Origin: Prauserella halophila
Lineage (GTDB): Bacteria; Actinomycetota; Actinomycetes; Mycobacteriales; Pseudonocardiaceae
DNA length: 64,000 bases
Direction: 5' to 3'
Assembly (NCBI RefSeq): GCF_024171895.1
Contig: NZ_JAMTCQ010000008.1
Coordinates: 1,178,001-1,242,000, forward strand
The notes beneath the pieces were generated by a model. It worked only from the letters and a program-made list of their open reading frames with translations. It was not told the origin of the DNA and did not search any database. Both the position numbers and the translations under genes were made by a program. Shown in pieces: positions 20,813-63,233 of the stretch (positions within the stretch are counted from its first letter, which is position 1; the number at the start of each line of letters is the position of its first letter).

Positions 20813-21457
20813 TCAGACCAGGCCGAACCGTGCCGCGTGCACGCCCGCCTGGAACCTGCTCTGAGCATCGATCGACCCCATCGCCACCGCGATGTCGTTA
20901 CGTACGGTTCGAACGCTGACACCGATCTTCCGCGCCACGGCCTCATCGGTCATACCGTCCGCCAACAAGCGGAGTATCAGTTCCGTACGCGCCTTCGAAC
21001 GACCCGACCCGGTCCCGGCCACCGGACTGGCGCGCTGCCACGACAACTCGGCGAACCGGCACAGTGACCGGACCGCCGACGGCCGGTACATCAGTCGATG
21101 TGTCGGCCCGTCGAAGACGATGCCGACGGTGCGGTCGATGGTCACCGCGCGAGTCGATACATGCGTCGCCACCCGAGTCACGACCTTCCGCTCGGCCAGC
21201 CACTCCACATGCTCGACCACTTCGGGAATGTCCAACAGGTAGTCCTGCAACACATAGCGGACGCTGCCGCCACTACGCAGCATGAGCTTGATCAAGGACC
21301 TGGAGAACTCGAGTGCGTTCGACGAGTACTCGGGAACCAGGAACACCACATCATTTCGCACACCGACGAGCAGTCGCTCGATCACCGCACTCGGGTCGAC
21401 CGGATCCCCTTGAACTCCATCCCCGATCGGATCAACCCCCTGGACCGCATGACTCAT
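20813..21457 (-). CDS. LuxR-type HTH regulator, probable cluster regulator
   Basis: 214 aa. The C-terminus is a LuxR helix-turn-helix (RTELILRLLADGMTDEAVARKIGVSVRTVRNDIAVAM). The N-terminal 145 residues (DVVFLVPEYSSNALEFSRSL, SVRYVLQDYLLDIPEVVEHVEW, VGIVFDGPTHRLMYRP) resemble the TrmB/PLD-like sensor domain found in small actinomycete regulators of secondary metabolism. The ATG lacks a ribosome site, but TATTACT lies about 6 bp upstream as a possible -10 box, so the transcript may be leaderless. It flanks the biosynthetic genes and is the only regulator near them. Confidence 0.85.
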   Translation of the reverse strand: MSHAVQGVDPIGDGVQGDPVDPSAVIERLLVGVRNDVVFLVPEYSSNALEFSRSLIKLMLRSGGSVRYVLQDYLLDIPEVVEHVEWLAERKVVTRVATHVSTRAVTIDRTVGIVFDGPTHRLMYRPSAVRSLCRFAELSWQRASPVAGTGSGRSKARTELILRLLADGMTDEAVARKIGVSVRTVRNDIAVAMGSIDAQSRFQAGVHAARFGLV

Positions 21458-21733
21458 CGAGAGTAATACCCCCTGTTGTGACCGACGGTGACGACGTCAC
21501 CCGATTGAATGACACGTCGACGTTAGCACCGACTGAGGAACTCTCAGGCCGCTTTCTGCGATCTGTTCAGGGTAAGCAATCCGAAATGTTATCTCTCCAG
21601 GTCAGGGCACGCCCCAGGGAGTACGAGCCAACGACGGCGTCACGCCATTCCACAAATTGAGAAGTCAACGAATACGGGACGCCGTGCAAGTGGATTACTA
21701 CTAACGTAGGGTATCGACCGCCAGGGATAAAAC

Positions 21734-21748
21734 GTGAACATGGTTCAC
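21734..21748. promoter_or_regulatory. Palindrome, candidate operator
   Basis: GTGAAC-ATG-GTTCAC, a perfect 6-3-6 inverted repeat, about 280 bp upstream of the LuxR-type gene. Confidence 0.4.
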
Positions 21749-21830
21749 AGACGTGAAGGTGTTTTGTCGCCCTGGGCGAACAACCGAGAAAATCCACAGA
21801 AGCAGATCCGGAGCATCACATGAAATCGAC

Positions 21831-21846
21831 GTGAAATCGGTTTCAC
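21831..21846. promoter_or_regulatory. Palindrome, candidate operator or weak terminator
   Basis: GTGAAA-TCGG-TTTCAC, a perfect 6-4-6 inverted repeat sharing the GTGAA half-site with the element at 21734. It lies 35 bp past the mbtH stop. Confidence 0.4.
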
Positions 21847-22067: not shown

Positions 22068-23138
22068 TCAACTCCCCGCCTTTCCCGGACCGACCGGTGC
22101 ACTCGCGACGAAGTCGGGCACGAAGTGGCCTCCGTCGATCGCGCTGACCCGGTCACAGACCCACCCGCCGACGGCCAGGTCGAGGACACCGAGACCGAAC
22201 GGCGAGACGATGACGGCCTTCCCCTGCTCACGACGGAGGCGACCACGTACGACGTCGGCGATCGTGCCGTCGACGAAGTCGCGATGGCCCACCTGCTGCT
22301 CGGCGAGATGCAACGATGCCTGCTCTCGCACGGCGTGATCGACGTCGTCGGTCACGTTGGTCGCCGCCAGGACGAGTTCCGGGGCGAAGTCCCGGAGCGA
22401 GAGGTGCAACACGACGGGTGCGTCGGCGAGCAACGCCGGATCGGTCAGGTGCGGCTCGCCGGCGACGGTCGCGACGACGACCAGGTCGGCGCCGGTGAAC
22501 ACATCGGCAACGTCGTCGGCCACCGTCGCCTGTTCGGCCTGCCCGTCCTCGACGAGCTGCGCGGCGAAACGGTCGGCGTTCTCCCGCACGGTGTCGAAGA
22601 GCACGAAATCGTCGACCGCCCAGTCGAGATCACGCAGGAACATCCGCACGTGGTCGCTGATCAACCCGGTACCGACGAATCCGACCCTGCCCGCGCTCCT
22701 GCCGCCGAGCAGGGCCTCCGCACCGAGCGCAGCCGATGCGGCCGTACGTGTCGCCGAGATGACCGACGCCTCGAGCATCGCGTACGGGTACCCGGTGTCG
22801 TAGTCGTTGAGCACCATCACGGCGGAAGCGCGCGGAAAGCCGTGGTCGACGTTGCCGGGATAGCTGGCGATCCACTTGATGCCCGAACGAGGTGTGCCCG
22901 CGTCGTCGAGAAAAGCCGGCAGCGCGATGATCCGGTCCTTCGGCCTGTCGGGGAACCGCAGGAAACTCGAATGCGGGTTCGCCGTCGATCCGTCCTGATG
23001 CGCCAGGTAAGCGGCACGTACCACATCGAGCGCACCCTCGCGGTGCGTTTCGACCTGTTCGACGACGTCGGCGGCACCGATCACGCGCACACCGGACGGC
23101 GGCGCGAACGTGGATTCCTGCAACGACTGGTCAGACAT
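22068..23138 (-). CDS. SbnB-like ornithine-cyclodeaminase-family dehydrogenase (Dap synthesis)
   Basis: 356 aa of the ornithine cyclodeaminase/mu-crystallin fold, with the Rossmann motif GRVGFVGTGLISDHVRMFL and substrate region SGIKWIASYPGNVDHGFPRA. Paired with an SbnA homologue, the expected reaction is NAD+-dependent oxidative hydrolysis of N-(1-amino-1-carboxyl-2-ethyl)-glutamate to L-2,3-diaminopropionate and 2-oxoglutarate, as for SbnB in staphyloferrin B synthesis. Here Dap would feed the NRPS. Start ATG has GGAGGAG upstream; 41 bp separate it from the SbnA-like gene. Confidence 0.9.
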   Translation of the reverse strand: MSDQSLQESTFAPPSGVRVIGAADVVEQVETHREGALDVVRAAYLAHQDGSTANPHSSFLRFPDRPKDRIIALPAFLDDAGTPRSGIKWIASYPGNVDHGFPRASAVMVLNDYDTGYPYAMLEASVISATRTAASAALGAEALLGGRSAGRVGFVGTGLISDHVRMFLRDLDWAVDDFVLFDTVRENADRFAAQLVEDGQAEQATVADDVADVFTGADLVVVATVAGEPHLTDPALLADAPVVLHLSLRDFAPELVLAATNVTDDVDHAVREQASLHLAEQQVGHRDFVDGTIADVVRGRLRREQGKAVIVSPFGLGVLDLAVGGWVCDRVSAIDGGHFVPDFVASAPVGPGKAGS

Positions 23139-23179: not shown

Positions 23180-24175
23180 TCATGCGTGAACGACCTCCAA
23201 CTCGAGCGAGGGGGTGTCGTCCTCGGACAGACTCGCCGCCCACGCCGGGTTGTAGACGGTGTCGGCGTACGCGGTCCCCCGATCGGCGCACAGGAATGCG
23301 ACAGTGGGCCGCCGGCCACGGTAACCCGCGAAATAGCGCTCGATCGCGGTGTACACCGTGCCCGACGAACCGCCCGCGTAAATTCCGTGGTCGCGCAGCA
23401 ACCGGCGACACCCCTCGACGGTGTCCCGCTCCGGGACGACGACCACGTCGTCGATCAGAGCGTGGTCGAACAATTCCGGGGTGATACTCGAACCGAGCCC
23501 GGGAATTCGTCGCTTCTTGGGATGACCGCCGAAGATGGCCGAACCCTCGGCATCGATCGCGATCACACGGATGCCCTGGTACGTCTCTTTGAGGCGCAGC
23601 GACAGACCCCCGATCGTTCCGCCGGTGCTCGTGCCCACGAACACGTAGTCGATCCTGCGGAAAGCCCGGACGAGTTCGCCCCCGGTCAAGCGGTAATGAC
23701 CGAAGATCGCGTCCGTGTTTGCGTACTGATTCGGCCAGTACACGGACGCGATCTCGTCGCGGAGCTCGGTCACCTTGTCGAGCCTCGTCGCGAGGAAGCC
23801 ACCGGACGAGTCGCGTACCGTGACCTTCTCGACACGATCGCACACCGAACGCAGGTAGGCCTCCGTGATCGCGTTGCAGTTCGGATCGATGACCGGAACG
23901 AACGGCACTCCAAGGGACCGGCACAGCGACGCCATCGAGACGGCGAGGTTGCCGGACGACGATTCCACCACCGTGGTCCGGTCGTTGATGTCGCCGCGCT
24001 CCACCGCCTGCTTGAGCATCCAGAACGCGGAACGATCCTTCGAGCTTCCGTTCGGATTGGTGAACTCCAATTTCGCGTACAGATCGACGTTCTCATGCTC
24101 CAACCGCATCACCGGGGTCTCCGGCATCGATCGGCGGACTCTGTCGAGCTGTCGTGACAACCGGTCGGCGGTCAT
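23180..24175 (-). CDS. SbnA-like PLP enzyme (Dap synthesis)
   Basis: 331 aa of the cysteine-synthase fold. Lys46 in NPNGSSKDRSAFWML is the PLP lysine, ESSSGNLAVSMA binds the cofactor or substrate, and VGTSTGGTIGG holds the phosphate. SbnA condenses O-phospho-L-serine with L-glutamate to N-(1-amino-1-carboxyl-2-ethyl)-glutamate. The start at 24175 is favoured: GGGAGG lies about 8 bp upstream and the ATG overlaps the preceding stop (TGATG). The ATG at 24190 would overlap the upstream gene further. Confidence 0.9.
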   Translation of the reverse strand: MTADRLSRQLDRVRRSMPETPVMRLEHENVDLYAKLEFTNPNGSSKDRSAFWMLKQAVERGDINDRTTVVESSSGNLAVSMASLCRSLGVPFVPVIDPNCNAITEAYLRSVCDRVEKVTVRDSSGGFLATRLDKVTELRDEIASVYWPNQYANTDAIFGHYRLTGGELVRAFRRIDYVFVGTSTGGTIGGLSLRLKETYQGIRVIAIDAEGSAIFGGHPKKRRIPGLGSSITPELFDHALIDDVVVVPERDTVEGCRRLLRDHGIYAGGSSGTVYTAIERYFAGYRGRRPTVAFLCADRGTAYADTVYNPAWAASLSEDDTPSLELEVVHA

Positions 24176-25446
24176 CAGCAGGCCTCCCATTTACTCACAG
24201 GCACATAGCTGGGGATCGGGAACTGCGACAGCAGTCTGCGCACGGACTCAGCAACGGACCCGCGTACCGACTCGTCCAGACTGCCGTCGGGTCTGGCGGC
24301 CGAGATCACCGCATCGAGTAGCTCGGCGATCTCGCGGATCTCGCTCGGCCCGAACCCTCGTTGCGCGAGCGCGGTGCTGCCGAGCGCCACTGCCGCGCTC
24401 CCCGCCACACCCTTCGGCGCGGCGCCGACCGAGACACCGACCTTGCCGAACACATCGATCACCGCATCAACGTGTTCGAACCGGTCCGGTGGTTCGAGCA
24501 CGATCGTGTGGTCGGCCAATTCCGCAGGAGACACTCGGCCACCCAGCTTCGCCAATTCGTCCGACAACGCGGCGGCGGTCGAACGGATGCGGACAGTCGT
24601 CTCCCGGAACGGCCGCGTCGTTGCCAGGTCCAATGCGCGGGCCTTTCCTGCAACGGCCGACAGTTCACCGGATCCCGGCCACGACCACGTCAGGGTTCCT
24701 GCGCATGCCTCGGCCGTCCCGTCACGGGAGGAGGTGAGCACGATCGCCCCACGGGGACCGAACAACCGACGATCGGTTCCGACCACCGTGACGTGCGCGT
24801 GGCCGACGGGACTCTGCACCTCACCGATCGCGATCTCGCCCGCAGTGGCGGTGACGTCGGCGATCAACAACGCGCCCGCACCGTCGGCGATGGCACGAAG
24901 GCGCTCGTAGTCCATCGTCGCGGGTGCGTAGGGCCCTCCGCAGAGTAGCGCGGGAGGACGAACCGCATCGACGAGATCGGCGACGGCACGATGACGCGCC
25001 TGCTGGTGACCGGCAACTCCGGCGTCATGTCCGGCGCCCACGGCCTCCCGTAGATCCAGTGCGGCTCGCACGTCATGGCCGAACGCGTCGAGTACCCCCG
25101 TCACCGCTGCGGGGACGGAGCCCGGGAGCACGTTCGCGTAATCCGCGCCGAATACCTCGCGGGCCCGGTCGGCGGCCAGACGTTCGACCCTGACGGGGAC
25201 CTCCGTGGCGAGCTGATCGGACGGCCTGGTGACACCGGCGCTGCAGGCGAGCACGGAGGGCTCCACGAATGCGGCGTCGGGAGTGAGCGACAGGGTCGAC
25301 TCCCGGTCGGCGTGTTCGGCCTGCATCGCACCGTGCAGCTGCGGATCCTCTCCGGCCAGAAGCTCGGCTCCCACGGCGAGAAACCCCGTCAACGGCGAAC
25401 TCGCGTTCGCCGGCCTCGTGATACGAGCCGTGATCGGTAGTGACAT
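24175..25446 (-). CDS. SHMT-fold protein lacking the catalytic lysine
   Basis: 423 aa, aligned by eye over most of its length with serine hydroxymethyltransferase (VERLAADRAREVFGADYANV; YERLRAIADGAGALLIADV; LFGPRGAIVL; QRGFGPSEIREIAELLDAV). At the PLP site the family pattern THKTLRGPRGG is replaced by TDRRLFGPRGA, so the Schiff-base lysine is Arg226; the substrate-carboxylate Arg of the LRIGTPA block is Ala354. It should not be a working SHMT. Being in the Dap operon between exporter and SbnA-like genes, it may be a pseudoenzyme partner or a reshaped enzyme acting without PLP. ATG at 25446 has CCAGGTG upstream. Confidence 0.8.
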   Translation of the reverse strand: MSLPITARITRPANASSPLTGFLAVGAELLAGEDPQLHGAMQAEHADRESTLSLTPDAAFVEPSVLACSAGVTRPSDQLATEVPVRVERLAADRAREVFGADYANVLPGSVPAAVTGVLDAFGHDVRAALDLREAVGAGHDAGVAGHQQARHRAVADLVDAVRPPALLCGGPYAPATMDYERLRAIADGAGALLIADVTATAGEIAIGEVQSPVGHAHVTVVGTDRRLFGPRGAIVLTSSRDGTAEACAGTLTWSWPGSGELSAVAGKARALDLATTRPFRETTVRIRSTAAALSDELAKLGGRVSPAELADHTIVLEPPDRFEHVDAVIDVFGKVGVSVGAAPKGVAGSAAVALGSTALAQRGFGPSEIREIAELLDAVISAARPDGSLDESVRGSVAESVRRLLSQFPIPSYVPVSKWEAC

Positions 25447-25487
25447 CACCTGGTCCTCGTCTCTCCGCTCGGGTCCGCGCACGGAGG

Positions 25488-26306
25488 TCAGCGGGTTACC
25501 GCACGCCGGTAGGCGCGGACCGCGAGAGGTATGAACACCAGGAGCATCAGCCCGGTCAGCAACAGGGACATCGGCGCCGCATGCTCGACGAGCACCGAAT
25601 CGCCCAACTCTCCGGTGGGGTTGCCGAACAGTTCGCGACAGGCCGTCACGACGGCCGACAACGGATTCCACTCGCAGATCGCACGCAGCCAATCCGGTAG
25701 CCCGCCCAAGGGAATGAACGCGTTGGAAAGGAAGGTCACCGGCAACACGATGAGGATGGTCACCGAGTTGATGGCCTCCACGTCACGAAGCACCAGCCCG
25801 ATCAGCGCGCCGAACCACGACATCGCGAACCCCAGCAGCAGCAGCAGGCCGTAGCCGGCGAGCGCGGCGCCGATGCCGTTGTCGAGTCGCCACCCGATGA
25901 TGTACCCGACCGCCGACATCACCACGATGGACAGCAGCGCAATCACCATGTTGGAACACGTCCGGGCCAACGGCACCGAGAGGTTCGTCATCGGAAGCGA
26001 TCGGAACCGATCGACCAGACCGTTGTTCAGATCGCTCGCGATGCCGAGGGCCGTGCTCGACACGTTGGTGAGCATCGTCTGCGCGAGAATGCCGGCCATC
26101 AGATATTCCTGGTAGTTACCGCCAGGAGCCCTCATCGCGCTGCCGAACAGGACGCCGAACAGCACCACGTACGCGACGGGCATGAGTGTGGCGCCGAGCA
26201 GCTTCTCCGGCATGCGGATCAGGTGGCGCAGATGCCGCCCGAAGAGAGCGGCGGTGTCGCTGCCGAGTTCGACGGCCGGGTTCATGGGCTTGGTCGGCGT
26301 GGTCAT
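25488..26306 (-). CDS. ABC-2 type exporter permease (DrrB-like)
   Basis: 272 aa with about six hydrophobic helices and the ABC-2 pattern (PEKLLGATLMPVAYVVLFGV; SDLNNGLVDRFRSLPM; SVTILIVLPVTFLSNAF; LRAICEWNPLSAVVTACREL). Forms an export pump with the ATPase encoded immediately upstream, the two overlapping by 4 bp. In this cluster it most likely secretes the peptide and gives self-resistance. Confidence 0.93.
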   Translation of the reverse strand: MTTPTKPMNPAVELGSDTAALFGRHLRHLIRMPEKLLGATLMPVAYVVLFGVLFGSAMRAPGGNYQEYLMAGILAQTMLTNVSSTALGIASDLNNGLVDRFRSLPMTNLSVPLARTCSNMVIALLSIVVMSAVGYIIGWRLDNGIGAALAGYGLLLLLGFAMSWFGALIGLVLRDVEAINSVTILIVLPVTFLSNAFIPLGGLPDWLRAICEWNPLSAVVTACRELFGNPTGELGDSVLVEHAAPMSLLLTGLMLLVFIPLAVRAYRRAVTR

Positions 26307-27256
26307 CCGGTTTCCACCTGCGTGTTCTTTCCCGTCAGTGACAGGAATACGTCGTCGAGCGACGGTCGCCGCACACCGAAGTCGTCGACGTCGAGGCCGA
26401 GCGAGTCGAGGGCGCCCGCGGCCTCGGCGACCGCCCCGATTCCGGGTGCCATCGCCACGGTCACGGTGAGTCCGTCGTCGTCCAGGGTCGCGGGCGCGGT
26501 GCCGATTCCGGTGAGCGCCCGTGCCGCACGTTCGGCCGATTCCGGTGTCGTGAGCCGCACCGCGAGGCGTTCGCCGCCGACCTTGCGCTTGAGCTCGTCG
26601 GCGGTGCCTTCCGCGATCACCGAGCCACTGTCGATCACCAGGATCCGGTCGGCCAGTTGGTCGGCTTCCTCGAGGTACTGCGTGGTCAGCAGCACCGTCA
26701 CGCCCGCCGCGACCTCACCTCTGATCGTCTCCCACAATGTGTTCCTGCTGTGGGGGTCCAGACCGGTGGTCGGCTCGTCGAGGAACAGCACCTCCGGTCG
26801 TGCGACGAGGCTCGCGGCGAGATCGAGTCGCCTGCGCATACCGCCCGAATATCCCTTCACCGCACGGTCGGCGGCCTCCGTCAGGTCGAACCGTTCCAGC
26901 AAGTCGTCCGCCACCCGCTTCGCGGTGCGGCGCCCGAGGTGATAAAGGGTGCCGACGAGGCGCAGGTTCTCGCGCCCCGTCAGCCGCTCGTCCACCGCGG
27001 CGTACTGGCCGGTGAGGCCGATCCTGCGCCGGACCTCACGAGCACGGCCTGCGACGTCGAATCCCGCCACCGACGCATGGCCGGCGTCGGCGGACAACAA
27101 CGTGGCGAGGATGCGCACTGTCGTCGTCTTCCCCGCCCCGTTGGGACCGAGCACCCCAAGCACCGTTCCGGTCGGCACGGACAAGTCCACGCCACGGAGC
27201 GCTTCGTTCTCGCCGTAGCGTTTACGGAGCCCTTCCGCCTGTATCGCGATACCCAA
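26303..27256 (-). CDS. ABC exporter ATP-binding protein (DrrA-like)
   Basis: 317 aa from a TTG at 27256 (GAAGGTGGG upstream). Walker A GPNGAGKTTTVR, ABC signature YSGGMRRRLDLAASL, Walker B EVLFLDEPTTGLDP, followed by the DrrA-type C-terminal extension of about 90 residues. It pairs with the overlapping permease. Longer upstream starts exist in frame but would extend into the divergent promoter region. First gene of the minus-strand operon exporter, SHMT-like, SbnA, SbnB, MbtH. Confidence 0.92.
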   Translation of the reverse strand: MGIAIQAEGLRKRYGENEALRGVDLSVPTGTVLGVLGPNGAGKTTTVRILATLLSADAGHASVAGFDVAGRAREVRRRIGLTGQYAAVDERLTGRENLRLVGTLYHLGRRTAKRVADDLLERFDLTEAADRAVKGYSGGMRRRLDLAASLVARPEVLFLDEPTTGLDPHSRNTLWETIRGEVAAGVTVLLTTQYLEEADQLADRILVIDSGSVIAEGTADELKRKVGGERLAVRLTTPESAERAARALTGIGTAPATLDDDGLTVTVAMAPGIGAVAEAAGALDSLGLDVDDFGVRRPSLDDVFLSLTGKNTQVETG

Positions 27257-27484
27257 TTGCCCACCTTCGAAAGCCTGCCGGTCGCGGCGTCGGTGGCGAC
27301 TCAAGCATGCGATTCGGCCAGCACGCCATCGCGTTGCAACAACCTGCTGCGGCCGTCGACCGCGTTCCCGCCGCGGGGCACTCGCAGGGCGTGCAGCTAA
27401 CTGCAACCAGGTTGCCGCGGGACCGACTCGCTCAACAGACTCGCCTCCGTCGCCCTATTCGACCAGGCGAAGGTGATCGATACG
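27257..27484. promoter_or_regulatory. Divergent promoter region between exporter/Dap operon and NRPS genes
   Basis: 228 bp with no gene. Contains an 8-bp palindrome GTTGCAAC (27333-27340) and a perfect 6-1-6 inverted repeat GCAACC-A-GGTTGC (27403-27415) sharing the GTTGC half-site. They are candidates for the binding site of the cluster regulator, which would control both directions at once. Confidence 0.55.
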
Positions 27485-36651: not shown

Positions 36652-51689
<15,038 letters not shown>

Positions 51690-51693
<4 letters not shown>

Positions 51694-51947: not shown

Positions 51948-52095
51948 ACGCCGGTCCGCGCGCGCCGGACCGCGCGCCCGCGCTGCAGGAAGTGGAAGAA
52001 CGATTGGCGCCCCGGTGCTGCATCGATAGTTTTCAACTGGGACGCAATGAAAGTCACTCGAGTCCACACGAGACGCGAAGGCGATGAGGTTGACG
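51948..52095 (+). promoter_or_regulatory. Probable promoter region of the PKS operon
   Basis: 148 bp between a hairpin and the ketoreductase start; AT-richer at 52020-52070. No gene. The next eleven kilobases are nearly gapless, so their promoter should lie here. Confidence 0.5.
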
Positions 52096-53888: not shown

Positions 53889-54149
53889 ATGAGCACGGCC
53901 ATCGACCGGTCCAAGATGGAAGAACTGAAGGAAATCGTGGTGGAGGTTCTCGAGATCGAGGACGACGAACTCACCGACACGAGCCTGTTCATCGACGACC
54001 ACGAGGCGGATTCGCTGCGTGCCATCGAGATCCTCGCCCGCATCGAGAAGAAGTACAAGGTCGACATCCCGCAGAGCGAGCTGCCGAAGATGGTGAATCT
54101 GCAGGAGGTCTACAACGTCGTCGCGCAGTACGCGGACTGGCAGGACTGA
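53889..54149 (+). CDS. Acyl carrier protein
   Basis: 86 aa, acidic, with Ser42 in HEADSLRAIEIL as the phosphopantetheine site. AAGGAG lies 8 bp before the ATG. It carries the growing polyene of the type II PKS and is followed after 3 bp by the ketosynthase. No phosphopantetheinyl transferase gene is seen in the window. Confidence 0.95.
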   Translation: MSTAIDRSKMEELKEIVVEVLEIEDDELTDTSLFIDDHEADSLRAIEILARIEKKYKVDIPQSELPKMVNLQEVYNVVAQYADWQD

Positions 54150-55361: not shown

Positions 55362-56509
55362 GCACGCAGGCCCAGCAGACGCTGGCGATCACGGGGTGGA
55401 GCGCCGTGAGCCCGATCGGCATCGGCCCGGACACATTCACCGAGTCCTTCAACACCGGTGCCCGCGGCAACACCGACGTCACCGAGATGTTCGACGACGA
55501 ACCCCTCCCCCGCTCCGACGCGTTCGCGATGCCCGACTTCAAGGCCAAGGACCACCTCGGCCGCAAAGGCACGTCCTTCCTCGACCGGAGCACCGCGCTG
55601 GCGATGGTGGCCTGCGGCGGTGCGCTCGCGGATGCCGAACTCGTGATCGACGAGGACAACGCGGAACGGGTCGGGGTCGCGCTCGGCACCACGGCAGGCA
55701 GCGTCAAGTCGACGAGCGACTACGGCAGGGCGACGTTCGTCGAGGACAAGCCGTACCTGGTGAATCCGCTGATCTTCCCCAACGCGGTGATGAACTGTGC
55801 CGCGGGACAGTCGGCCATCCGGTACCGGCTCAAGGGCGTCAACGCCACGCTCGCGGGCGGCCCCGCGGCCATGCTGTCCGGACTGCGCTACGCGCGCACC
55901 CAGATCGGACTCGACCGCGTGGAGACGCTCGTGGTCGGAGCCACCGAGGAGTTCGGTCCCCAGACCGCGTGGGCGAACGAGTTCGCCATGCGTGCGGGCG
56001 GCGGCGAGCTCTCCGCCGGTGAGGGCGCGGCGATGTTCGTCGTCGAGGACGCCGCACGAGTCCGTGATCAGGGCCGGGTGCCCGACGCAGAGGTACTTGC
56101 CGTCGAGGTCGCCACGCACGTCCCCGACACCGAGAGCGACCTGTCGCCCGATTTCTCGGCATCCCTCGCACGATGCATCGATCGTGCACTGACTCGTGCG
56201 GGAATCACCCCGGACGAGGTGTCCACCGTCGCGTCGGCGGAGAACACCATGCCCGCCACGGACCGTTACGAGGACTCCGCCATCACGTCCACGGTCGGCA
56301 CCGCCGCCCACCGGATCCGGGTCAAGCAGCAGTTGGGTGAGGCCATGTCCGCGTCGGGAGCACTGCAGCTCGCCGCACTGCTCGCGGGCCACCGGAGCGG
56401 CGAGAGCCGCGACGGCGAGGTCTCCCTACTGACCGCACACACCCCCGACGGCGTCGTGGGCGCCGCGGTGCTTCGAGGCTGGAGGGGACGTGCACGCGCC
56501 TCCGAGTGA
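55358..56509 (+). CDS. Chain length factor KS-beta (first)
   Basis: 383-aa ketosynthase homologue without the catalytic residues: the Cys loop reads NATLAGGPAAM, and the two His motifs are replaced (SAENTMPATDR; LGEAMSASGALQL). This is the KS-beta/CLF partner that, with the preceding KS, sets the number of elongations. Confidence 0.92.
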   Translation: MSTQAQQTLAITGWSAVSPIGIGPDTFTESFNTGARGNTDVTEMFDDEPLPRSDAFAMPDFKAKDHLGRKGTSFLDRSTALAMVACGGALADAELVIDEDNAERVGVALGTTAGSVKSTSDYGRATFVEDKPYLVNPLIFPNAVMNCAAGQSAIRYRLKGVNATLAGGPAAMLSGLRYARTQIGLDRVETLVVGATEEFGPQTAWANEFAMRAGGGELSAGEGAAMFVVEDAARVRDQGRVPDAEVLAVEVATHVPDTESDLSPDFSASLARCIDRALTRAGITPDEVSTVASAENTMPATDRYEDSAITSTVGTAAHRIRVKQQLGEAMSASGALQLAALLAGHRSGESRDGEVSLLTAHTPDGVVGAAVLRGWRGRARASE

Positions 56510-57617
56510 GACCGGAACTTCCGCCGCCGTCACCGGTGCGGCGATGACCACGTGCTTCGGTGACACCGACCGCACCGTCGACGCGCTCCTCGCCGGAGAG
56601 AGCGGTGTCGCCCCGCTTCGGGGAATGGACACCGAGGCGATGGGTGTCGTCTACGGCTACCCGATCGCCGACGGCGACGAGTCGCAGAGCCGCGCCTCCG
56701 GCTGGCTGACCGGCGTGATCCGCGACGCGACCGCGGGCCTGGAACTCGACGGCAGGCGGGTCGCCGTCGTCGTGGGCTCGGGCCTGCGGGAGCTCCGGAG
56801 CCTCGAACGGTGGCACCGCGACGGCGCCGCGTTCGGCGTGCGGCAGCTGCACTTCGACGAGGCGGTACGGGCGGCCCTGCCGGGCGTGGCCGAGGTACTC
56901 ACGGTGTCCAACGCCTGCTCGGCGTCCGGATACGCGCTCGCGGTCGGCATGGACCTGCTCTCCGCCGACGAGGCGGACGTCGTCGTGGCCGCGGGCACCG
57001 ACTCGAGGACCGAGAGCATGCTCACCATGATCGGAAAGATCGGCGACGAGCTGACGGCCGCCGTCGAGCCGTTCGACGTCGACAGGACGGGCGTGCTGCT
57101 CGGCGAGGGGGCCGCGGCGGTGGTGATCGAACGTGAGGCCCGCACCCCACTGGGGTGGATCCGCTCCGTCGGCTTGACCTGCGACGCCCACCACGAGACG
57201 GCGCCCGACCAGGCAGGCGTCGTCGGCGCGATGCGGGACGCGCACGAACGGGCGGGTGTCACTCCCGCCGACATCGGACTGGTCGTCGCGCACGGCACCG
57301 GAACGGCGCTGAACGACCCCACCGAGGCAGGCGCGCTCACCGAGACGTTCGGGACGTCCCGCCCGCAGATCACCGCGATCAAGGGCGCCACGGGACACAC
57401 GTCGGGCGGCGCGTCGCTGATGAACACGATCGTCGCACTCACCGCGATGCGCACGGGCACGATCCCCGCCGTCACCGGCCTGCGGACCCCCATCGAACAG
57501 GCGGCCGGGTTGAACCTCGTCGTCGGCGACGCCGCACCGACCACGGCGACACTCGCGCAGGTCGACGCATTCGGATTCGGCGGTGTCAACGCGGTGACCG
57601 TTGTGGAGGTGGCGTGA
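56490..57617 (+). CDS. Beta-ketoacyl synthase (second)
   Basis: 375 aa from GTG at 56490 (GGAGGGG upstream), overlapping the CLF by 20 bp. Catalytic residues are present: Cys143 in SNACSASGYA, HGTGTALNDPTE and GATGHTSGGAS. A second active KS in such clusters may handle priming or a different range of chain lengths; its partner is probably the shortened protein encoded next. Confidence 0.92.
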   Translation: MHAPPSETGTSAAVTGAAMTTCFGDTDRTVDALLAGESGVAPLRGMDTEAMGVVYGYPIADGDESQSRASGWLTGVIRDATAGLELDGRRVAVVVGSGLRELRSLERWHRDGAAFGVRQLHFDEAVRAALPGVAEVLTVSNACSASGYALAVGMDLLSADEADVVVAAGTDSRTESMLTMIGKIGDELTAAVEPFDVDRTGVLLGEGAAAVVIEREARTPLGWIRSVGLTCDAHHETAPDQAGVVGAMRDAHERAGVTPADIGLVVAHGTGTALNDPTEAGALTETFGTSRPQITAIKGATGHTSGGASLMNTIVALTAMRTGTIPAVTGLRTPIEQAAGLNLVVGDAAPTTATLAQVDAFGFGGVNAVTVVEVA

Positions 57618-58435
57618 TGAGCGCACCAGCGTCCGGACAGCTGCCGGTTCCCCCGGTTTCCGTCACGGGTGCGGCCGTGCACCTTCCCGGATTGTCGGCC
57701 GCGGACATTCCCGGCGGACCGGCCGAACCTGCGGTGGCGCCCGCCGAGGCGTACCGGGTACTCGGCCGCAAGGGTCTGCTCGCCAAGGAACCGGCCACAC
57801 GGCTGGCGATGTGCGCCGCGCAGACCGCGCTCGGGCTGGGCATCGGCAAAGTCGCCGGGCCCGTCGCGGGCGCCGAGGGGACGGGCGTCGTGGTCGCCTC
57901 GAACCTGGGCAACGTCGCGACCGTGTGCAACCTGGTCGACACCGTACGCACCGAGGGCAAGGACGGGGTGAGCATCATGGAGGGGCCCAACGCCTCCAGC
58001 AACGTCGTCGCCAGCAGCATCGCGCTGCGCTTCGGCTTCACCGGGCCGAACTTCCTCGTCTCCAGCGGCGCCACGGCCGGGCTCGACGCGGTGCGGCTGG
58101 GCTCACTGCTCGTGCGCGCGGGACGCACCCACCGCTGTGTCGTCGTCGGGGCCGAACCCGACGACGACATCGCCACCGCACTGCGCCCCGGCATCCGCGC
58201 GGCGGCCGCCGCCGTGGTCCTCGAACCCGACGCGGACGGCCCCCGGCTCGGCACGCTCACACGGTCCGCCGACGCACCCACGACCGGGACGGTAACCGGC
58301 CACGCCGGGGAGACCTACGGCGCCGAGGGGGTCGTCGAACTGGCGACCGCAGTCTCCGGGGACGCCGTTCCCGGGTCGGTGAGCTGCGGAGACCACCAGG
58401 ACGGCTACGCGACACTGACCGTGGAGTCACGGTGA
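57617..58435 (+). CDS. Shortened, non-catalytic ketosynthase-like partner (second CLF type)
   Basis: 272 aa, about two thirds of a normal KS. N-terminal thiolase-fold blocks are recognisable (GTGVVVASNLGNVATVCNLV; NASSNVVASSIALRFGFTG), but the Cys loop reads FLVSSGATAGLD with no Cys. The HGTGT block is missing, and the GHxxGA region survives only as GHAGETYGAEGVVEL. The reading frame is clean and translationally coupled (TGATG), so this looks like a designed short CLF, comparable to the truncated KS-like proteins of aryl polyene clusters, not decay. Confidence 0.82.
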   Translation: MSAPASGQLPVPPVSVTGAAVHLPGLSAADIPGGPAEPAVAPAEAYRVLGRKGLLAKEPATRLAMCAAQTALGLGIGKVAGPVAGAEGTGVVVASNLGNVATVCNLVDTVRTEGKDGVSIMEGPNASSNVVASSIALRFGFTGPNFLVSSGATAGLDAVRLGSLLVRAGRTHRCVVVGAEPDDDIATALRPGIRAAAAAVVLEPDADGPRLGTLTRSADAPTTGTVTGHAGETYGAEGVVELATAVSGDAVPGSVSCGDHQDGYATLTVESR

Positions 58436-59229
58436 CCGAGTGGCACAGGATCGCCGAACGGGACGGGGTCGGCGCGTGGGCGATGGGCACCGGTCCGACC
58501 GTGCTCACCGCACACGGCATCGAGGACAGCTGGCGCATCTGGACACCGATCGCCGAGCGCCTCGCCCGTGATTACCGGGTGGTCGCCCTCGATCTTCCGT
58601 GGCGGCCCGGCAACGACTACCGCTGGGCCGGCGACGGCACGCCGGGCGAATGGCTGGGCCATGCCGTCGACGTCGCGCTGGAGGCGGTCGGCGACCGGCA
58701 GCACCGGTTGCTGAGTCATTCGTTCGGTGCCACCGCGACGTTCGAACTCCTTGCCCACGGCCACCGTCCGACCAGCATCGTCCTGCTCGCCCCGTGCTAC
58801 CGCGCCCCGCACACTCCGGTCGAGAGCCTGCGGGAACCGTGCAGGGAAGCACTGCGCGCCACCATCCGCACCGGCCTCCGTGTCGGGCTCGAAGGACGCT
58901 CCGTCGACCCCGACGTGTTCACCATCATGCAGCAGGGGCTGGAGGACCGGCTGATGCCACAGGTCTTCCCGGTGTTCTTCGACTTCTTCACGAGAACCGG
59001 CTACCTTGATCTGTCCGATGTGGACGTTCCCACACTCGTGGTCGCGGGAACCCACGACATCGCGTTGACGCGTGAACGCGCGGACGCGCTCGCCGAGCAG
59101 ATGCCGCACACCACGGTGTCGATGTACGACCACTACACCCACTTCTGCCATCAGGAACAGCCCGCAGGCATCGCCGCCGAAGCGGCGGAGTTCCTGGCAC
59201 GTCACGCACCGACCGGAGGACACGCATGA
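58432..59229 (+). CDS. Alpha/beta hydrolase
   Basis: 265 aa from GTG, overlapping the preceding stop. Nucleophile Ser97 in LLSHSFGATATFEL, acid Asp in VVAGTHDIALT, His in the DHYTHFCHQEQ segment; an alpha-helical cap lies in between. It could act as a type II thioesterase clearing stalled chains, or as the enzyme handing the acyl chain over; substrate not determinable. Confidence 0.87.
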   Translation: MTEWHRIAERDGVGAWAMGTGPTVLTAHGIEDSWRIWTPIAERLARDYRVVALDLPWRPGNDYRWAGDGTPGEWLGHAVDVALEAVGDRQHRLLSHSFGATATFELLAHGHRPTSIVLLAPCYRAPHTPVESLREPCREALRATIRTGLRVGLEGRSVDPDVFTIMQQGLEDRLMPQVFPVFFDFFTRTGYLDLSDVDVPTLVVAGTHDIALTRERADALAEQMPHTTVSMYDHYTHFCHQEQPAGIAAEAAEFLARHAPTGGHA

Positions 59230-60179
59230 CCACCATCACCGACACCGAGGCGACCACGCTGGAGGCGACACCCTCCTACGAGGGCGCGAACATCCGCACC
59301 TGGATCGGGTTCAAGCACTTCATGTACCTGGTCGAGGCGGCCGTTCTCGAACATTTCCGGGACAACGAGCTCGGGGCGCGCGAGCTGTATCACCGCCACG
59401 GTGTCGGGCTGGAGATCGTCGACTCGTCGGTGCAGCTGCCGCACGTACTGGAGGTCGACGACGACCTCGAGGTCGTCGTCGAGCCCGCGACGCGGCAGAA
59501 GCCGGGTCACGGCGCGGCGTTCACCGCGCGCATCCTGATCCGCAAGTCCGACGACAAGGTATTGGCTCTCAAAGGAAAGGTGCGCGTGGCGCTGATCGCG
59601 GAGAAGGATGCGCCCGCCTCCGAACCGGCTCCCTCGGCGGTCTCCGGACTCGTCCTGGACGAGGTCGCCGCACTCGCCGACGCGGACGAGACCGCACTTC
59701 CCATCTCCGACGGGCAGGACGCCGCCGATGTCCTGGCACCGCAGGGCTCGGGTGCCTACCTGTGGTCGTGGCGGGCACCGTACTTCTACTGCCACTACTC
59801 GGATCGCGTGCAGCACTCCGCCTACGTGCGGGCGATGGAGGAGGTCGTGGACCACTTCCTGCACGACCGCGGACTCGGCGTCGGCAAGATGCTGGAGGAA
59901 CGCGCCTGGATCCCGGTGGTCTCACGCGCACGGGTCCGGCTGACGGCGGACGCGCACATGGAAGAGATCGTGCACACCGTGTTCACGGTGCAGGACTTCA
60001 TCAAGGACATGTCCTACACCGCCACCTTCGACTGCTACGTACGACGGGGTGACCGGCTGGTCCGCACCGCAACCGGAACGATCATGCACGGGTACGCCAT
60101 CAGCCGCGGCGAGAAGGCCGGCACCGTCGCCCTGCTCGACGAGGACACCAAGAAGGCGCTGACGGGAGACCGGGCATGA
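59226..60179 (+). CDS. Tandem hot-dog (4HBT thioesterase-like) protein
   Basis: 317 aa with two hot-dog halves: WIGFKHFMYLVEAAVLEHF and later PYFYCHYSDRVQHSAYVRAM each resemble the entry helix of acyl-CoA thioesterases of the FadM/4HBT type. The second half has the polar residues (Asp, His) expected near the active site. May hydrolyse or transfer the acyl-ACP product, or serve as a dehydratase/isomerase-like hot-dog; overlaps both neighbours by 4 bp. Confidence 0.75.
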   Translation: MTTITDTEATTLEATPSYEGANIRTWIGFKHFMYLVEAAVLEHFRDNELGARELYHRHGVGLEIVDSSVQLPHVLEVDDDLEVVVEPATRQKPGHGAAFTARILIRKSDDKVLALKGKVRVALIAEKDAPASEPAPSAVSGLVLDEVAALADADETALPISDGQDAADVLAPQGSGAYLWSWRAPYFYCHYSDRVQHSAYVRAMEEVVDHFLHDRGLGVGKMLEERAWIPVVSRARVRLTADAHMEEIVHTVFTVQDFIKDMSYTATFDCYVRRGDRLVRTATGTIMHGYAISRGEKAGTVALLDEDTKKALTGDRA

Positions 60180-60907
60180 GCACGCCGAAACGCAAACCCC
60201 GCCTGTACTTCTCGCTGCGCAGTCCGTTCAGCTGGATGGCCGTTCGACAGCTCGAGCAGCGGGTGCCGAACGCCGACGAGAAGATCGACTACATTCCGTT
60301 CTTCGAACCGGACGAGGAATCGGCACGCGCACTGGCGCAGCGGGGCGGTGAGTTCCACTACGTCCACATGAGCAAGGCCAAGCACCTGTACATCCTCAAC
60401 GACACCAAGCGGCTCGCCGCCAAGTTCGGCTATCGGATGCAGTGGCCGGTGGACGACGACCCGTGGTGGGAGCTGCCGCACCTGGCCTGGATCAAGGCCA
60501 GGGAAATGGGTGTGCACCGGGAGTTCTACCGTGCGGTGACCGCGGCGCGGTGGGAACGCGGCGAGAACATCTGCGACACCGAGAATCTGCGCGCGATCCT
60601 CGTCGAGGCCGACCTTCCCACGGATCCGCTGCTCGAGACTCCGTCCGATCCCGACATCCGTGCCGCCGGCGTGGACGCGCTGATGAAGGTCTACGACGAC
60701 GACGTCTTCGGTGTGCCGTACTTCCGCTGGGGCTCGCAGAAGTTCTGGGGCCTTGATCGCCTCGACGACTTCCTCGCCGTGTTCGAGCCGGCGCTCGACC
60801 AGGGCCTGCCCGCGGGACCTTCCGAGGACCCGTTGGCGGATGTGCCGTCAGCAGTCACCGCGGCCGTCGGAGCCTTCGATCACGACACCGCGGGCGGCTG
60901 CGGCTGA
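60176..60907 (+). CDS. DsbA-fold isomerase (2-hydroxychromene-2-carboxylate isomerase type)
   Basis: 243 aa; thioredoxin-like fold opening RLYFSLRSPFSWMAVRQLEQ, with Ser16 where glutathione-dependent isomerases carry a serine, and VFGVPYFRWGSQKFWGLDRL near the C-terminus. In cinnamoyl-lipid peptide clusters (skyllamycin type) a gene of this family is a hallmark and is thought to isomerise a double bond of the polyene so that the benzene ring can form by electrocyclisation. I assign that role by analogy. Confidence 0.88.
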   Translation: MSTPKRKPRLYFSLRSPFSWMAVRQLEQRVPNADEKIDYIPFFEPDEESARALAQRGGEFHYVHMSKAKHLYILNDTKRLAAKFGYRMQWPVDDDPWWELPHLAWIKAREMGVHREFYRAVTAARWERGENICDTENLRAILVEADLPTDPLLETPSDPDIRAAGVDALMKVYDDDVFGVPYFRWGSQKFWGLDRLDDFLAVFEPALDQGLPAGPSEDPLADVPSAVTAAVGAFDHDTAGGCG

Positions 60908-60926
60908 GCCCGGGATCGGAGAGTTG

Positions 60927-61376
60927 ATGTCCGAAGTGAGCCGGAGACGGCCGCTCGTGCTCGTGTCCAGTGTCTCGTCCGATTCGCACACCTGGAACCT
61001 GGTGTTTCTGCAACTGCTGCTGGAGGAGACGGGGCACGAGGTCGTGAACCTGGGTGCCTGTGTGCCCGACGAACTGCTGGTGTCCGAGTGCGCGGCCCAT
61101 CGGCCCGACGCGGTGGTCATCAGCACCGTCAACGGGCACGGACACGTCGACGGGCAGCGGCTCATCGACCGGGTCCGTGCCGACGAGCGACTGTCGGACC
61201 TGCCGGTGGTCATCGGCGGGAAATTGGGGGTGGGCGACGAGGACGACACCGCACTCGCCGCAGGCCTCGTGCAGCGCGGCTTCAACGCCGTGTTCGCCGA
61301 CAACGCCGACCCCGCGAGCTTCGTGCGGTATCTCGAATCCGTCGCCCCGCCGAGACTGGTACGGGACGCCGGATGA
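60927..61376 (+). CDS. Glutamate mutase (methylaspartate mutase) small subunit
   Basis: 149 aa, cobalamin-binding domain. The B12 ligand His21 lies in SSDSHTWNL, a variant of DxHxxG with Asn in the last place; VVISTVNGHGHVDG and PVVIGGKLGVG are further B12-fold motifs. With the large subunit it rearranges L-glutamate to (2S,3S)-3-methylaspartate. The ATG at 60927 lies 19 bp after the isomerase stop; the stop overlaps the next ATG. Confidence 0.92.
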   Translation: MSEVSRRRPLVLVSSVSSDSHTWNLVFLQLLLEETGHEVVNLGACVPDELLVSECAAHRPDAVVISTVNGHGHVDGQRLIDRVRADERLSDLPVVIGGKLGVGDEDDTALAAGLVQRGFNAVFADNADPASFVRYLESVAPPRLVRDAG

Positions 61377-62713
61377 GTCGTGACCCCGCCCCGGTGCAGT
61401 GCCGCGACACCGCACCGGTACCCGAGCCGAACGGCTCGTTCGCCGCCGTCGTACGCGATGCGGCGGACACCGGCGAACTGGTCGTCCAGCCGCGGATGGG
61501 CTTCTCCGCACCCGAGCGGATGCGGGCCGGACTGTCGGCCACCCGGGATGCGGACGCGGCGACGGTCGGCACGATCACCCTGGACAGTTACACCCGCGTC
61601 GGGGATTTCGCCGCGCTCCGCCGTGCCGATGCCGACGGGACCGACCTCAACGGCTACCCGCTCGTCACCGCGGACAAGACGGTCACCACGACGATGCTGG
61701 ACGACGTCCGCACCGCCCGGTTCCCCGTTCAAGTGCGGCACGGCAGTGCCCGTCCCGGGCCGATCGTCGACACGCTCATCGAGCTCGGCATCGACGCCAC
61801 GGAAGGCGGTCCGGTGTCGTACTGTCTGCCTTACGGACGGGTGCCGCTGCGCGAATCGGTCGGCGCTTGGGCCTCGGCGACCGCACGGTTCGCCACCGTC
61901 GGACCACGCGCGCATGTCGAGACCTTCGGCGGCTGCATGCTCGGCCAGCTCTGCCCGCCCGCACTACTGATCGCGGTCTCGGTGCTGGAAGGCATGTTCT
62001 TCGCCCAGCACGGGATCCGCTCGGTGTCGCTGTCGCTGACCCAGCAGACCAGCATGCACCAGGACCTCGAGGCCCTGCACGCTCTGCGCGCGATCGCCGA
62101 TCGTCATCTCACCGGGCTCGACCGCCACATCGTGGTGTACGCGTACATGGGTGTGTATCCGCGATCGGCATCCGGAGCGGTCACCCTGCTCACCGACTCC
62201 GCGAGGCTGGCGGTCCTCGGCGGAGCGGAACGGCTGATCGTGAAGACCGCGGCCGAGGCGTTCCGGATCCCCACGATCGAGGAGAACGTCATTGCGCTGG
62301 AGCAGGCGGCGGCGACCGCCCGGCACGACGTCCCCGACGGCGAGGCAGTACCGGACACCGGGATCCGCGCCGATGCGGACACGCTCATCGAGGCCGTGCT
62401 GGCGTTGGACGACGACATCGGCGCGGCACTGGTCAAGGCCTTCGAACTGGGGCTGCTCGACGTTCCGTACTGCCTGCACACCGACAACGCGGGCCGAACC
62501 CGCAGCTACGTCGACGAGAGCGGTCGCGTGTGCTGGTCGGACGTGGGCTCGTTGCCCGTCCGTCCCGGTGCCGATCTCCGGCCGCGACACGTCGGCAGTG
62601 CGGAGCTGCTCGGCGCGCTGAACCACGTCCGCCACCGCTACGACGCGGCCGAACCCGAGGAGACCTATGACCTACCGGCTGGAACAGCTGCTCCCCGATC
62701 ACGACCGGCGTGA
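61373..62713 (+). CDS. Glutamate mutase (methylaspartate mutase) large subunit
   Basis: 446 aa, TIM-barrel epsilon subunit, slightly shorter than the clostridial enzyme (about 480 aa). Recognisable blocks include VQVRHGSARPGPIVDTLIE, GGPVSYCLPYGRVPLRES and LTQQTSMHQDLEALHALRAI. It provides 3-methylaspartate for the Asp-type module 6 (code DLTKLGMVNK). Overlaps the small-subunit gene by 4 bp; its 3' end overlaps the next gene by 47 bp. Confidence 0.93.
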   Translation: MSRDPAPVQCRDTAPVPEPNGSFAAVVRDAADTGELVVQPRMGFSAPERMRAGLSATRDADAATVGTITLDSYTRVGDFAALRRADADGTDLNGYPLVTADKTVTTTMLDDVRTARFPVQVRHGSARPGPIVDTLIELGIDATEGGPVSYCLPYGRVPLRESVGAWASATARFATVGPRAHVETFGGCMLGQLCPPALLIAVSVLEGMFFAQHGIRSVSLSLTQQTSMHQDLEALHALRAIADRHLTGLDRHIVVYAYMGVYPRSASGAVTLLTDSARLAVLGGAERLIVKTAAEAFRIPTIEENVIALEQAAATARHDVPDGEAVPDTGIRADADTLIEAVLALDDDIGAALVKAFELGLLDVPYCLHTDNAGRTRSYVDESGRVCWSDVGSLPVRPGADLRPRHVGSAELLGALNHVRHRYDAAEPEETYDLPAGTAAPRSRPA

Positions 62714-63233
62714 ATACCACGAGACGCGCGTTCCGGGCCCGCCGGAGATCGCGTGGGCCGCGCTGACCGACCTGCGCGTGCGGGACCTTCCCCTCAGCAC
62801 CCTGCTCAGCAGACTGCGGGGCGGGCCGAAGGCGTGGTTCGCCCCGTTCGACGGCGGTGACGGGCGCGCGCTCGACAACGTGCCGCCGCGCGAGCTCTGC
62901 GCCGACCCGCCGAGGGAACTGATCCTGGGTGACATCGCCGACTACACCGGCAGTGGCCCGACCCGACCGGACGTGCCCCGCGGAGACCTGGAGAGTTTTC
63001 TCAGGTTCGACGAGCCAGGATGGACCAAGGTCGCGATGAACTTCAGGTTCGCCGCCGACGGCCGGGAAACCCGGCTGTCCACGGAAACCAGGGTGCTGGC
63101 GACCGACGAGGGCGCACGGAAGGCGTTCGCGAAGTACTGGCTGCTCGTGCGCGCGGGAAGTGGACTGATCCGGCGCGACATCCTGTCCGCGGTCCGCTCG
63201 GCTGCGGCGGAGAGAACACGGCCCGGAATCTGA
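62667..63233 (+). CDS. SRPBCC-type hypothetical protein
   Basis: 188 aa resembling SRPBCC/START-like proteins (RVPGPPEIAWAALTDLRVRD; DGRETRLSTETRVLATDE) with a helical C-terminus. GAGGAGA lies just before the ATG, inside the last 47 bp of the mutase gene, so it is co-translated with it. SRPBCC folds include polyketide cyclases but also many lipid- or ligand-binding proteins; no function is assigned. Confidence 0.7.
   Translation: MTYRLEQLLPDHDRREYHETRVPGPPEIAWAALTDLRVRDLPLSTLLSRLRGGPKAWFAPFDGGDGRALDNVPPRELCADPPRELILGDIADYTGSGPTRPDVPRGDLESFLRFDEPGWTKVAMNFRFAADGRETRLSTETRVLATDEGARKAFAKYWLLVRAGSGLIRRDILSAVRSAAAERTRPGI

Follow-up and report, generated by a model that had tools for sequence, protein, structure and literature searches.

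Skyllamycin, kitacinnamycin and epoxinnamide are assembled by systems in which a type II polyketide synthase (PKS) with an isomerase feeds a nonribosomal peptide synthetase (NRPS). Skyllamycin also contains beta-methyl-Asp, and we know of no Dap in any of these three compounds. Ishigamide is a polyenoyl amide made without a multi-module NRPS. According to excerpts of PMC6510318, an isomerase gene together with KS, KR, DH and ACP genes adjoining an NRPS is the search signature for the class of cinnamoyl-containing nonribosomal peptides (CCNPs), and at least one isomerase is found in the cal and sky clusters whereas the remaining type II PKSs in that comparison showed none.

The window analysed here, a 64,000-nucleotide stretch of the Prauserella halophila genome, contains a single cluster (positions 20813-63780) that combines a PKS cassette, SbnA/SbnB, a B12 glutamate mutase and a six-module NRPS. 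This is very likely a coprisamide-type CCNP cluster. The window shares with the three systems above the type II PKS with an isomerase next to an NRPS, and with epoxinnamide, in particular, two KS/CLF pairs, a KR, two DHs, an ACP and the isomerase. It differs from kitacinnamycin, for which nine modules, a tailoring P450 and a glycosyltransferase are described in the excerpts of PMC6510318, and from epoxinnamide, a decadepsipeptide according to excerpts of PMC9321520. The closest likeness is to coprisamide C/D (BGC0002378; compounds from Micromonospora sp. UTJ3) and is seen through the cluster of Streptomyces rugosispiralis RCU-064.

Gene content and precursor supply

The cluster includes the following genes and one repeat:

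20813..21457, minus: LuxR-type (GerE HTH) regulator (weak Pfam GerE/HTH_23 match)
22068..23138, minus: SbnB, Dap biosynthesis dehydrogenase (TIGR03944 equivalog)
23180..24190, minus: SbnA, Dap biosynthesis PLP synthase (TIGR03945 equivalog)
24175..25449, minus: SHMT-like protein, PLP lysine absent, putative pseudoenzyme (PF00464 and SHMT chains in PDB; start inferred)
25488..26306, minus: ABC-2 type exporter permease (PF01061)
26303..27406, minus: DrrA-like ABC ATPase (PF00005; PF13732 slightly under cut-off)
27473..36649, plus: NRPS1, C(starter)-A1-T-E-C-A2(Ser)-T-E
36646..51693, plus: NRPS2, C-A3-T-E-C-A4(Val)-T-C-A5(Dap)-T-C-A6(Asp-type, MeAsp)-T-TE
46192..46314, plus: in-frame tandem repeat within the A5 domain, 15-bp x 8.2 (TRF)
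51690..51899, plus: MbtH-like protein (PF03621)
52090..52836, plus: ketoreductase, KR (PF13561)
52836..53327, plus: dehydratase 1, FabA/hotdog (PF07977)
53324..53836, plus: dehydratase 2, FabA/hotdog (PF07977)
53889..54149, plus: acyl carrier protein (PF00550)
54153..55361, plus: KS1, ketosynthase alpha of polyene type (6kxd_A best solved match; TACSA stretch)
55358..56509, plus: CLF1, chain length factor (PF00109; corresponding stretch without Cys)
56490..57617, plus: KS2 (PF02801/PF00109; NACSA stretch)
57734..58435, plus: CLF2, short, true start uncertain and perhaps near 57617 (partial PF00109; relatives)
58432..59229, plus: alpha/beta hydrolase (PF12697)
59226..60179, plus: double-hotdog protein, candidate polyene cyclase or thioesterase
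60176..60907, plus: DsbA-fold (kappa-GST/HCCA-type) isomerase (PF01323)
60957..61376, plus: GlmS, glutamate mutase B12-binding subunit (PF02310)
61394..62713, plus: GlmE, glutamate mutase catalytic subunit, MutE (PF06368, 272.5 bits)
62667..63233, plus: orfX, conserved, no family (relatives in compared regions)
63262..63780, plus: DUF3995 membrane protein, last cluster gene (PF13160)

The preliminary description of this DNA placed the same start but ended the cluster at 63233; the DUF3995 gene belongs with it, and relatives of its product (41-59% identity by blastp) are encoded in 9 of the 11 compared regions. The orfX protein, for which neither Pfam nor NCBIfam gives a match at E 0.001, has relatives in 10 of the 11 (43-57%), and the LuxR-type regulator has relatives in the Saccharothrix (42%) and A. 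bangkokensis (48%) regions. The ABC permease and the DrrA-like ATPase would export the product.

The earlier gene inventory, which lacked the SHMT-like gene, otherwise stands. Its highly reducing type II PKS with a DsbA-fold isomerase is borne out by the Pfam families and by the presence of the cassette in relatives. The proposed SbnA/SbnB-type Dap synthesis agrees with TIGR03945 (384.5 bits, cut-off 349.95) and TIGR03944 (383 bits, cut-off 326.9), respectively, and the closest solved relatives of SbnA are SbnA and CmnB. For the B12 glutamate mutase, GlmE and GlmS both exceed the Pfam cut-offs and match the NCBIfam methylaspartate mutase equivalogs (MutE and MutS, respectively) under cut-off. 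SbnA/SbnB would make Dap and GlmS/GlmE 3-methyl-Asp; the supply genes for both residues expected of a coprisamide-type cluster are present, and this supply logic survived comparison of whole clusters. The window SbnA is 66-72% identical to those of Saccharothrix, A. bangkokensis and genome G530 but only 37% to that of S. rugosispiralis, and SbnA and SbnB of the Streptomyces clusters are distant (35-39% and 48-49% by blastp).

The SHMT-like protein has lost the Lys, His and Arg motifs, and the PLP lysine is absent in all three clusters in which such a gene was found. We therefore no longer consider it an active transaldolase or a supplier of glycine, and the protein is a putative pseudoenzyme. 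A literature search linking SHMT with gene clusters for diaminopropion-containing nonribosomal peptides found nothing.

Glutamate mutase alone was rejected as a cluster marker because GlmE relatives occur apart from the isomerase. Of 18 isomerase-bearing genomes, eight, among them the window's own, encode relatives at E <= 1e-6; in the other seven, GlmE is separated from the isomerase match by megabases or lies on a different contig, though in the fragmented G085 and G338 the two could be close together. At E <= 1e-100, relatives are found in 27 of 151 Micromonospora-genus genomes. Among 20 such loci inspected (L201, L219-L237), 12 adjoin an NRPS/MbtH match without the isomerase, three (L201, L219 and L223, with a full reading for L223, genome G530) have an isomerase match beside GlmE, and five are beside neither.

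Assembly line and related clusters

Domain models give the order C-A-T-E-C-A-T-E for NRPS1 and C-A-T-E-C-A-T-C-A-T-C-A-T-TE for NRPS2, that is, six modules with three E domains and one TE, as had been described. The HHxxxDG active-site motif is kept in all nine C/E domains. The first C domain forms a separate clade in the C/E tree, as expected of an acyl-accepting starter domain; the same role had been proposed earlier, and the whole-cluster comparison concurs. The A-domain codes were read by alignment at what we take to be the specificity positions: DVFSVAIVYK (A1), DVWHLSLVDK (A2), DALLIGAVVK (A3), DAYWWGGTFK (A4), DIWEMTADDK (A5) and DLTKLGMVNK (A6). We take A2 to be Ser, A4 Val type, A5 Dab/Dap type and A6 Asp type, so that all four of the earlier assignments (Ser, Val, a basic residue and Asp-type) agree with the aligned codes. 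The A1 string had no match in a literature search.

Related clusters were compared by blastp (E 1e-10, coverage of at least half of the shorter protein, best hits in one direction). Relatives of 24 of the 24 cluster genes were found in the Saccharothrix sp. S26 region, of 23 in A. bangkokensis and of 22 in S. rugosispiralis. The NRPS domain architecture is the same in all four relatives with two whole NRPS genes (G399, G402, G405 and G530, the last of the Micromonospora genus), and architecture and codes match position by position in S. rugosispiralis, Saccharothrix, Actinokineospora bangkokensis and one Micromonospora-genus genome. Within the set compared, the top-ranked matches of the window A domains are the same-position A domains of related clusters (61-72% identity). 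The A1 code is identical in 5/5 relatives read, and that of A2 identical or Leu/Ile-swapped in 5/5, with NRPS1 of S. scopuliridis cut by a contig end; A4 is identical in 5/5, a count that leaves out G404, where the NRPS2 region is split across several frames. The A5 code is identical in four of six relatives and one letter off in two, and that of A6 is identical in 9/9. Two Rhodococcus loci (L113, L116) have the cassette and GlmS/GlmE, the fetched DNA spanning only the last NRPS module, and in one comparison no GlmS/GlmE was found in the fetched regions of G247, G389, G383, G149, G329, G306 and G267.

The S. rugosispiralis RCU-064 cluster shares with the window the cinnamoyl-type highly reducing PKS cassette, SbnA/SbnB, GlmS/GlmE, MbtH, the ABC pair, six modules of which the first three have E domains, the terminal TE and five of the six A codes. 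In contrast, its A3 code is DALLVGAVAK, two letters from that of the window, its region shows no match for the SHMT-like and LuxR genes, and SbnA, SbnB and DUF3995 are placed elsewhere in the gene order. In excerpts of PMC10525797, coprisamide C/D is the most similar known cluster (95%) to cluster 1 of S. rugosispiralis, which we infer to be the contig-1 locus compared here. The formula given for coprisamide C in a 2026 review, '6*-cacyc(slV7*D(b-m))V', in which -c is cinnamoyl and 7 is Dap (PMC13192320, in excerpt), would spell out D-Ala, D-Ser, D-Leu, Val, Dap and MeAsp plus Val, with 'a' taken as D-Ala; so read, it has D residues at exactly the three E-bearing modules. The link to coprisamide thus runs through the S. 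rugosispiralis cluster, one similarity table and one compressed formula, not through BGC0002378 itself. By collinearity with this excerpted shorthand, the two codes previously left unread can be resolved, A1 fitting D-Ala and A3 fitting D-Leu.

The starter C domain would acylate residue 1, the three E domains would set the D centres, and the six modules would yield cinnamoyl-D-Ala-D-Ser-D-Leu-L-Val-Dap-3-methyl-Asp, which the TE would release and cyclise. The earlier lead to coprisamide holds when architecture and A codes are compared across whole clusters, and the near gene-for-gene, building-block match to the coprisamide family therefore makes this cluster a good further example in one more host genome, not a new kind. 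The suggestion that the exact peptide may be new loses ground, given the A1 code shared by 5/5 relatives and an A3 code one or two letters away from the DALL[VI]GAVAK read in 6/6. Because architecture and codes match those of coprisamide-type clusters, the product is probably the known peptide or a near congener of it. That it is a new congener, with Ile or Val instead of Leu at position 3 or another alkenyl length, is a serious prospect if short of an even chance: A3, alone among the six codes, departs from every one of the six relatives, by one or two of the nine variable letters; the A5 match, with its tandem-repeat insertion, spans 541 aa where six relatives have 499-512 aa; and relatives with whole genes share only ~51-62% identity over the NRPSs. 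On the other side, the A3 substitutions are conservative, and each of the other five codes agrees with that of all or most of the relatives.

Acyl cassette

The genes at 52090-58435 (KR/DH/DH/ACP/KS/CLF/KS/CLF) form a highly reducing type II PKS cassette with two KS/CLF pairs. Two hallmarks of CCNP clusters are present, namely polyene-type KS, KR, DH and ACP alongside an NRPS and a DsbA/kappa-GST-type cis-trans isomerase, presumably of HCCA type, which lies inside the same cassette in relatives. KS1/CLF1 and KS2/CLF2 with the KR, two DHs and ACP would build a polyene, the isomerase would introduce a cis bond and closure would give a 2-alkenylcinnamoyl group, with the double-hotdog protein as the candidate ring-closing enzyme. 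As a single-protein query against genome contigs the isomerase gave no matches, whereas alignment of the double-hotdog protein gave a result.

A linear polyenoyl chain resembling that of ishigamide, the ring-closing and oxidising enzymes being missing, appears quite unlikely. It would fit the closest solved match of KS1 in PDB, 6kxd_A (E 1.3e-113), which we take to be the ishigamide KS, and the KR as the sole oxidoreductase recognised by Pfam in the cassette (orfX being family-less). It would also fit excerpts of PMC9321520 in which ring closure in kitacinnamycin and youssoufene is attributed to Kcn17-19 and YssX; however, according to the same excerpts, epoxinnamide has the ring although no Kcn17-19 or YssX homologue was found in its cluster. 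The confinement of the isomerase to cal and sky among the type II PKSs compared in the excerpted PMC6510318 also argues for the cinnamoyl group, as does the same cassette in a cluster matched to coprisamide, a cinnamoyl bearer. A decayed or silent cluster with no product is highly improbable: the SHMT-like gene no longer encodes its catalytic residues, CLF2 is called short and A5 contains a tandem repeat, but no broken frame is seen among the cluster genes, the C/E motifs are intact, two other clusters share the lysine loss, and CLF2 is likewise shorter than CLF1 in Saccharothrix, A. bangkokensis and S. rugosispiralis.

The seventh residue

The coprisamides are described as heptapeptides, with Val reported as the seventh residue; six modules do not account for seven residues. 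The product had been called a hexapeptide, which agrees with the six modules but may undercount the residues because of this description. In the coprisamide-type reading, the gene set gives no sign of the step that would attach this Val. It is conceivable, if unlikely, that the Val module (4) and the next C domain act twice, placing Val on the Dap side-chain amine as well as in the main chain, so that a branched heptapeptide forms without a seventh module or ligase gene, and that the PLP-free SHMT fold beside SbnA is retained in some clusters, the window's included, to aid Dap supply in a non-catalytic way. With the clusters gathered here, three questions can be addressed: the origin of a seven-residue peptide from six modules, the identity of the ring-closing enzyme of the cassette and the reason for keeping a lysine-free SHMT fold in three clusters. 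For the S. rugosispiralis, A. bangkokensis, Saccharothrix and G530 clusters, searches of 80 kb of surrounding DNA with domain models turned up no additional A or C domain, and none of the genes common to the compared clusters was recognisable as a ligase. Extra A-like open reading frames are present near the S. scopuliridis cluster (565 aa) and in the Rhodococcus locus L116 (572 aa).

Gene content, borders and relatives of the cluster

The biosynthetic cluster noted in the preliminary description is real and was correctly read, as gene calls, family scans and whole-cluster comparison indicate; judging from its sequence, it is a further cluster of the already known coprisamide type. The window covers positions 1,178,001-1,242,000 of a 1.33 Mb contig in a 5.05 Mb genome. 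Codon-use gene calling and family scans delineate a continuous cluster whose first gene, for a LuxR-type regulator, lies at 20813 and whose last, a DUF3995 gene, ends at 63780. SbnB, SbnA, an SHMT-like protein and an ABC pair are encoded on the minus strand; the plus strand encodes NRPS1, NRPS2, MbtH, KR, two DHs, ACP and two ketosynthase/chain length factor pairs (KS1, CLF1, KS2 and CLF2), followed by a hydrolase, a double-hotdog protein, a DsbA-fold isomerase, GlmS, GlmE, the conserved protein orfX and the DUF3995 protein. The related regions contain no consistent counterparts of the window genes upstream of 20813 or of those within 18 kb downstream of the cluster, and hence 20813 and 63780 are the likely borders. 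The sole downstream exception is the following gene:

68840-69889 in extended window numbering (L001:6840-7889), minus strand: second SbnB-like gene, some 5 kb beyond the end of the cluster

It is this gene, not the in-cluster copy, that is the best match in the P. halophila stretch for the cluster SbnB of Saccharothrix and A. bangkokensis. Elsewhere in the same genome, we observe a second NRPS gene (contig C7, about 21201-31457, a 3570-aa open frame) and a second polyene-type ketosynthase (contig C8, 114678-115925, minus strand) that is 51% identical to KS1.

Of 394 genomes sampled from the class, 18 contain a relative of the isomerase (E <= 1e-10), P. halophila itself being one of them, and an alignment scan of one genome per species identified 203 double-hotdog relatives among 299 pattern-matching stretches. 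Within flanks of up to 10 kb per side of the best 80 of these 203 (tblastn, E 1e-6), GlmE is found in 11 (L087, L088, L089, L091-L095, L106, L113 and L116), SbnB in nine, with SbnA/SbnB of A. bangkokensis and Saccharothrix lying outside this range, and the SHMT-like protein in none. Longer stretches were compared for five of the 11 GlmE-bearing genomes. By one-way best hits, relatives of the 24 cluster genes are present for all 24 in Saccharothrix sp. S26, for 23 in A. bangkokensis (no SHMT-like gene) and for 22 in S. rugosispiralis (neither a LuxR nor an SHMT-like gene). All four relatives whose NRPS genes lie complete in the compared DNA share the two-protein, six-module architecture, among them a genome of the same genus as Micromonospora sp. 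CB01531; NRPS1 of S. scopuliridis is cut by a contig end, and NRPS2 of strain SCUT-3 is split over several frames. By contrast, the regions of genomes G101 and G107 contain the whole PKS cassette, KS2, CLF2 and the hotdog protein included, with no GlmE nearby, and no matching two-protein NRPS was found in them.

Streptomyces sp. CB03234 (L139) and S. antioxidans (L146) also have PKS cassettes that include an isomerase and are accompanied by matches to SbnA/SbnB and NRPS; GlmE was not found in their compared flanks, suggesting Dap-containing relatives without MeAsp. Two Rhodococcus loci (L113 and L116) combine the cassette with GlmS/GlmE and an Asp-type last module; SbnA/SbnB and the hydrolase were not found in the compared flanks.

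Assembly line and adenylation codes

Domain models built from the window itself and run on six-frame ORFs give the NRPS order C-A-T-E-C-A-T-E + C-A-T-E-C-A-T-C-A-T-C-A-T-TE. The HHxxxDG motif is intact in all six C and three epimerisation-type (E) domains of the window, and the T-domain motif is GGDS where an E domain follows and GGHS in the remaining three. A tree of 36 unlabelled C and E domains from the window and three related clusters resolves four groups, with type names inferred from domain position: E; first C; C2-C4 (after E); and C5-C6. As expected, the first C domain forms a long separate branch, consistent with an acyl starter domain. In S. rugosispiralis NRPS1, the E domains of the first two modules, both part of the same protein, lie on very short branches, which hints at recent gene conversion.

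The adenylation codes, read at the usual positions mapped by alignment, are DVFSVAIVYK (A1), DVWHLSLVDK (A2), DALLIGAVVK (A3), DAYWWGGTFK (A4), DIWEMTADDK (A5) and DLTKLGMVNK (A6). They bear out the earlier assignments of Ser, Val, a basic residue and an Asp-type residue to A2, A4, A5 and A6, respectively. The codes largely agree between the window and related clusters, A3 differing by one or two letters from all six relatives read, and each window A domain ranks nearest its same-position counterparts (61-72% identity). The A5 domain contains an in-frame 15-bp tandem repeat (46192-46314, 8.2 copies, LSDEA repeat); the A5 match in the window exceeds those of the six relatives read by some 30-40 residues.

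Coprisamides and the seventh residue

According to PMC4778507, coprisamides are cyclic heptapeptides that contain beta-methyl-Asp and Dap and carry a 2-heptatrienyl cinnamoyl chain; coprisamides C and D are described as cyclic depsipeptides from Micromonospora sp. UTJ3 (PMC11119530). For cluster no. 1 of S. rugosispiralis RCU-064, the most similar known cluster is reported to be that of coprisamide C/D, at 95% (PMC10525797); the S. rugosispiralis contig 1 locus, which matches the window cluster in gene content, is presumably this published cluster. A coprisamide-associated cluster is also reported among three Great Salt Lake strains (at least 85% predicted similarity; PMC10960970), as is a match in Kitasatospora (73%; PMC11537117). 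A review abbreviates coprisamide C as 6*-cacyc(slV7*D(b-m))V, where -c is cinnamoyl, 7 is Dap and 6 is alkenylphenyl propenoic acid (PMC13192320). Lower case appears to denote D residues and, read that way from these secondary sources, modules 1-6 would correspond to D-Ala, D-Ser, D-Leu, Val, Dap and MeAsp; the D residues so read coincide exactly with the E-domain positions. The peptide core is thus probably the known coprisamide one or a close congener.

Of somewhat greater interest than the cluster itself is the seventh residue, given a six-module line versus the seven-residue product described for coprisamides (PMC4778507). Domain models identified no extra A or C domain in the 80 kb around each of four related clusters, and no ligase was recognised among the genes common to the related clusters. 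Counting against any general absence, A-like ORFs occur near the S. scopuliridis cluster (565 aa, G401 region 36001-37695, plus strand) and that of Rhodococcus L116 (572 aa, L116:16696-18411, plus strand). The codes of both differ from the six NRPS codes, and these could be separate adenylating enzymes.

The SHMT-like protein

24175-25449, minus strand: SHMT-like protein, within the Dap operon

Alignment with SHMT structures places an Arg of the window protein at the site of the PLP-holding lysine (TDRRL versus THKQL in 7qcw). The copies of Saccharothrix (L160) and genome G085 (L209) also lack this lysine, which is kept, as TYK or THK, in all ten other relatives read (L208 and L210-L218). The Arg of a later SHMT motif is missing from all three lysine-less proteins; the SH pair is retained in the Saccharothrix copy, and the window copy lacks the usual His motif. 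In the window, G085 and Saccharothrix alike, the gene sits between the ABC and SbnA genes.
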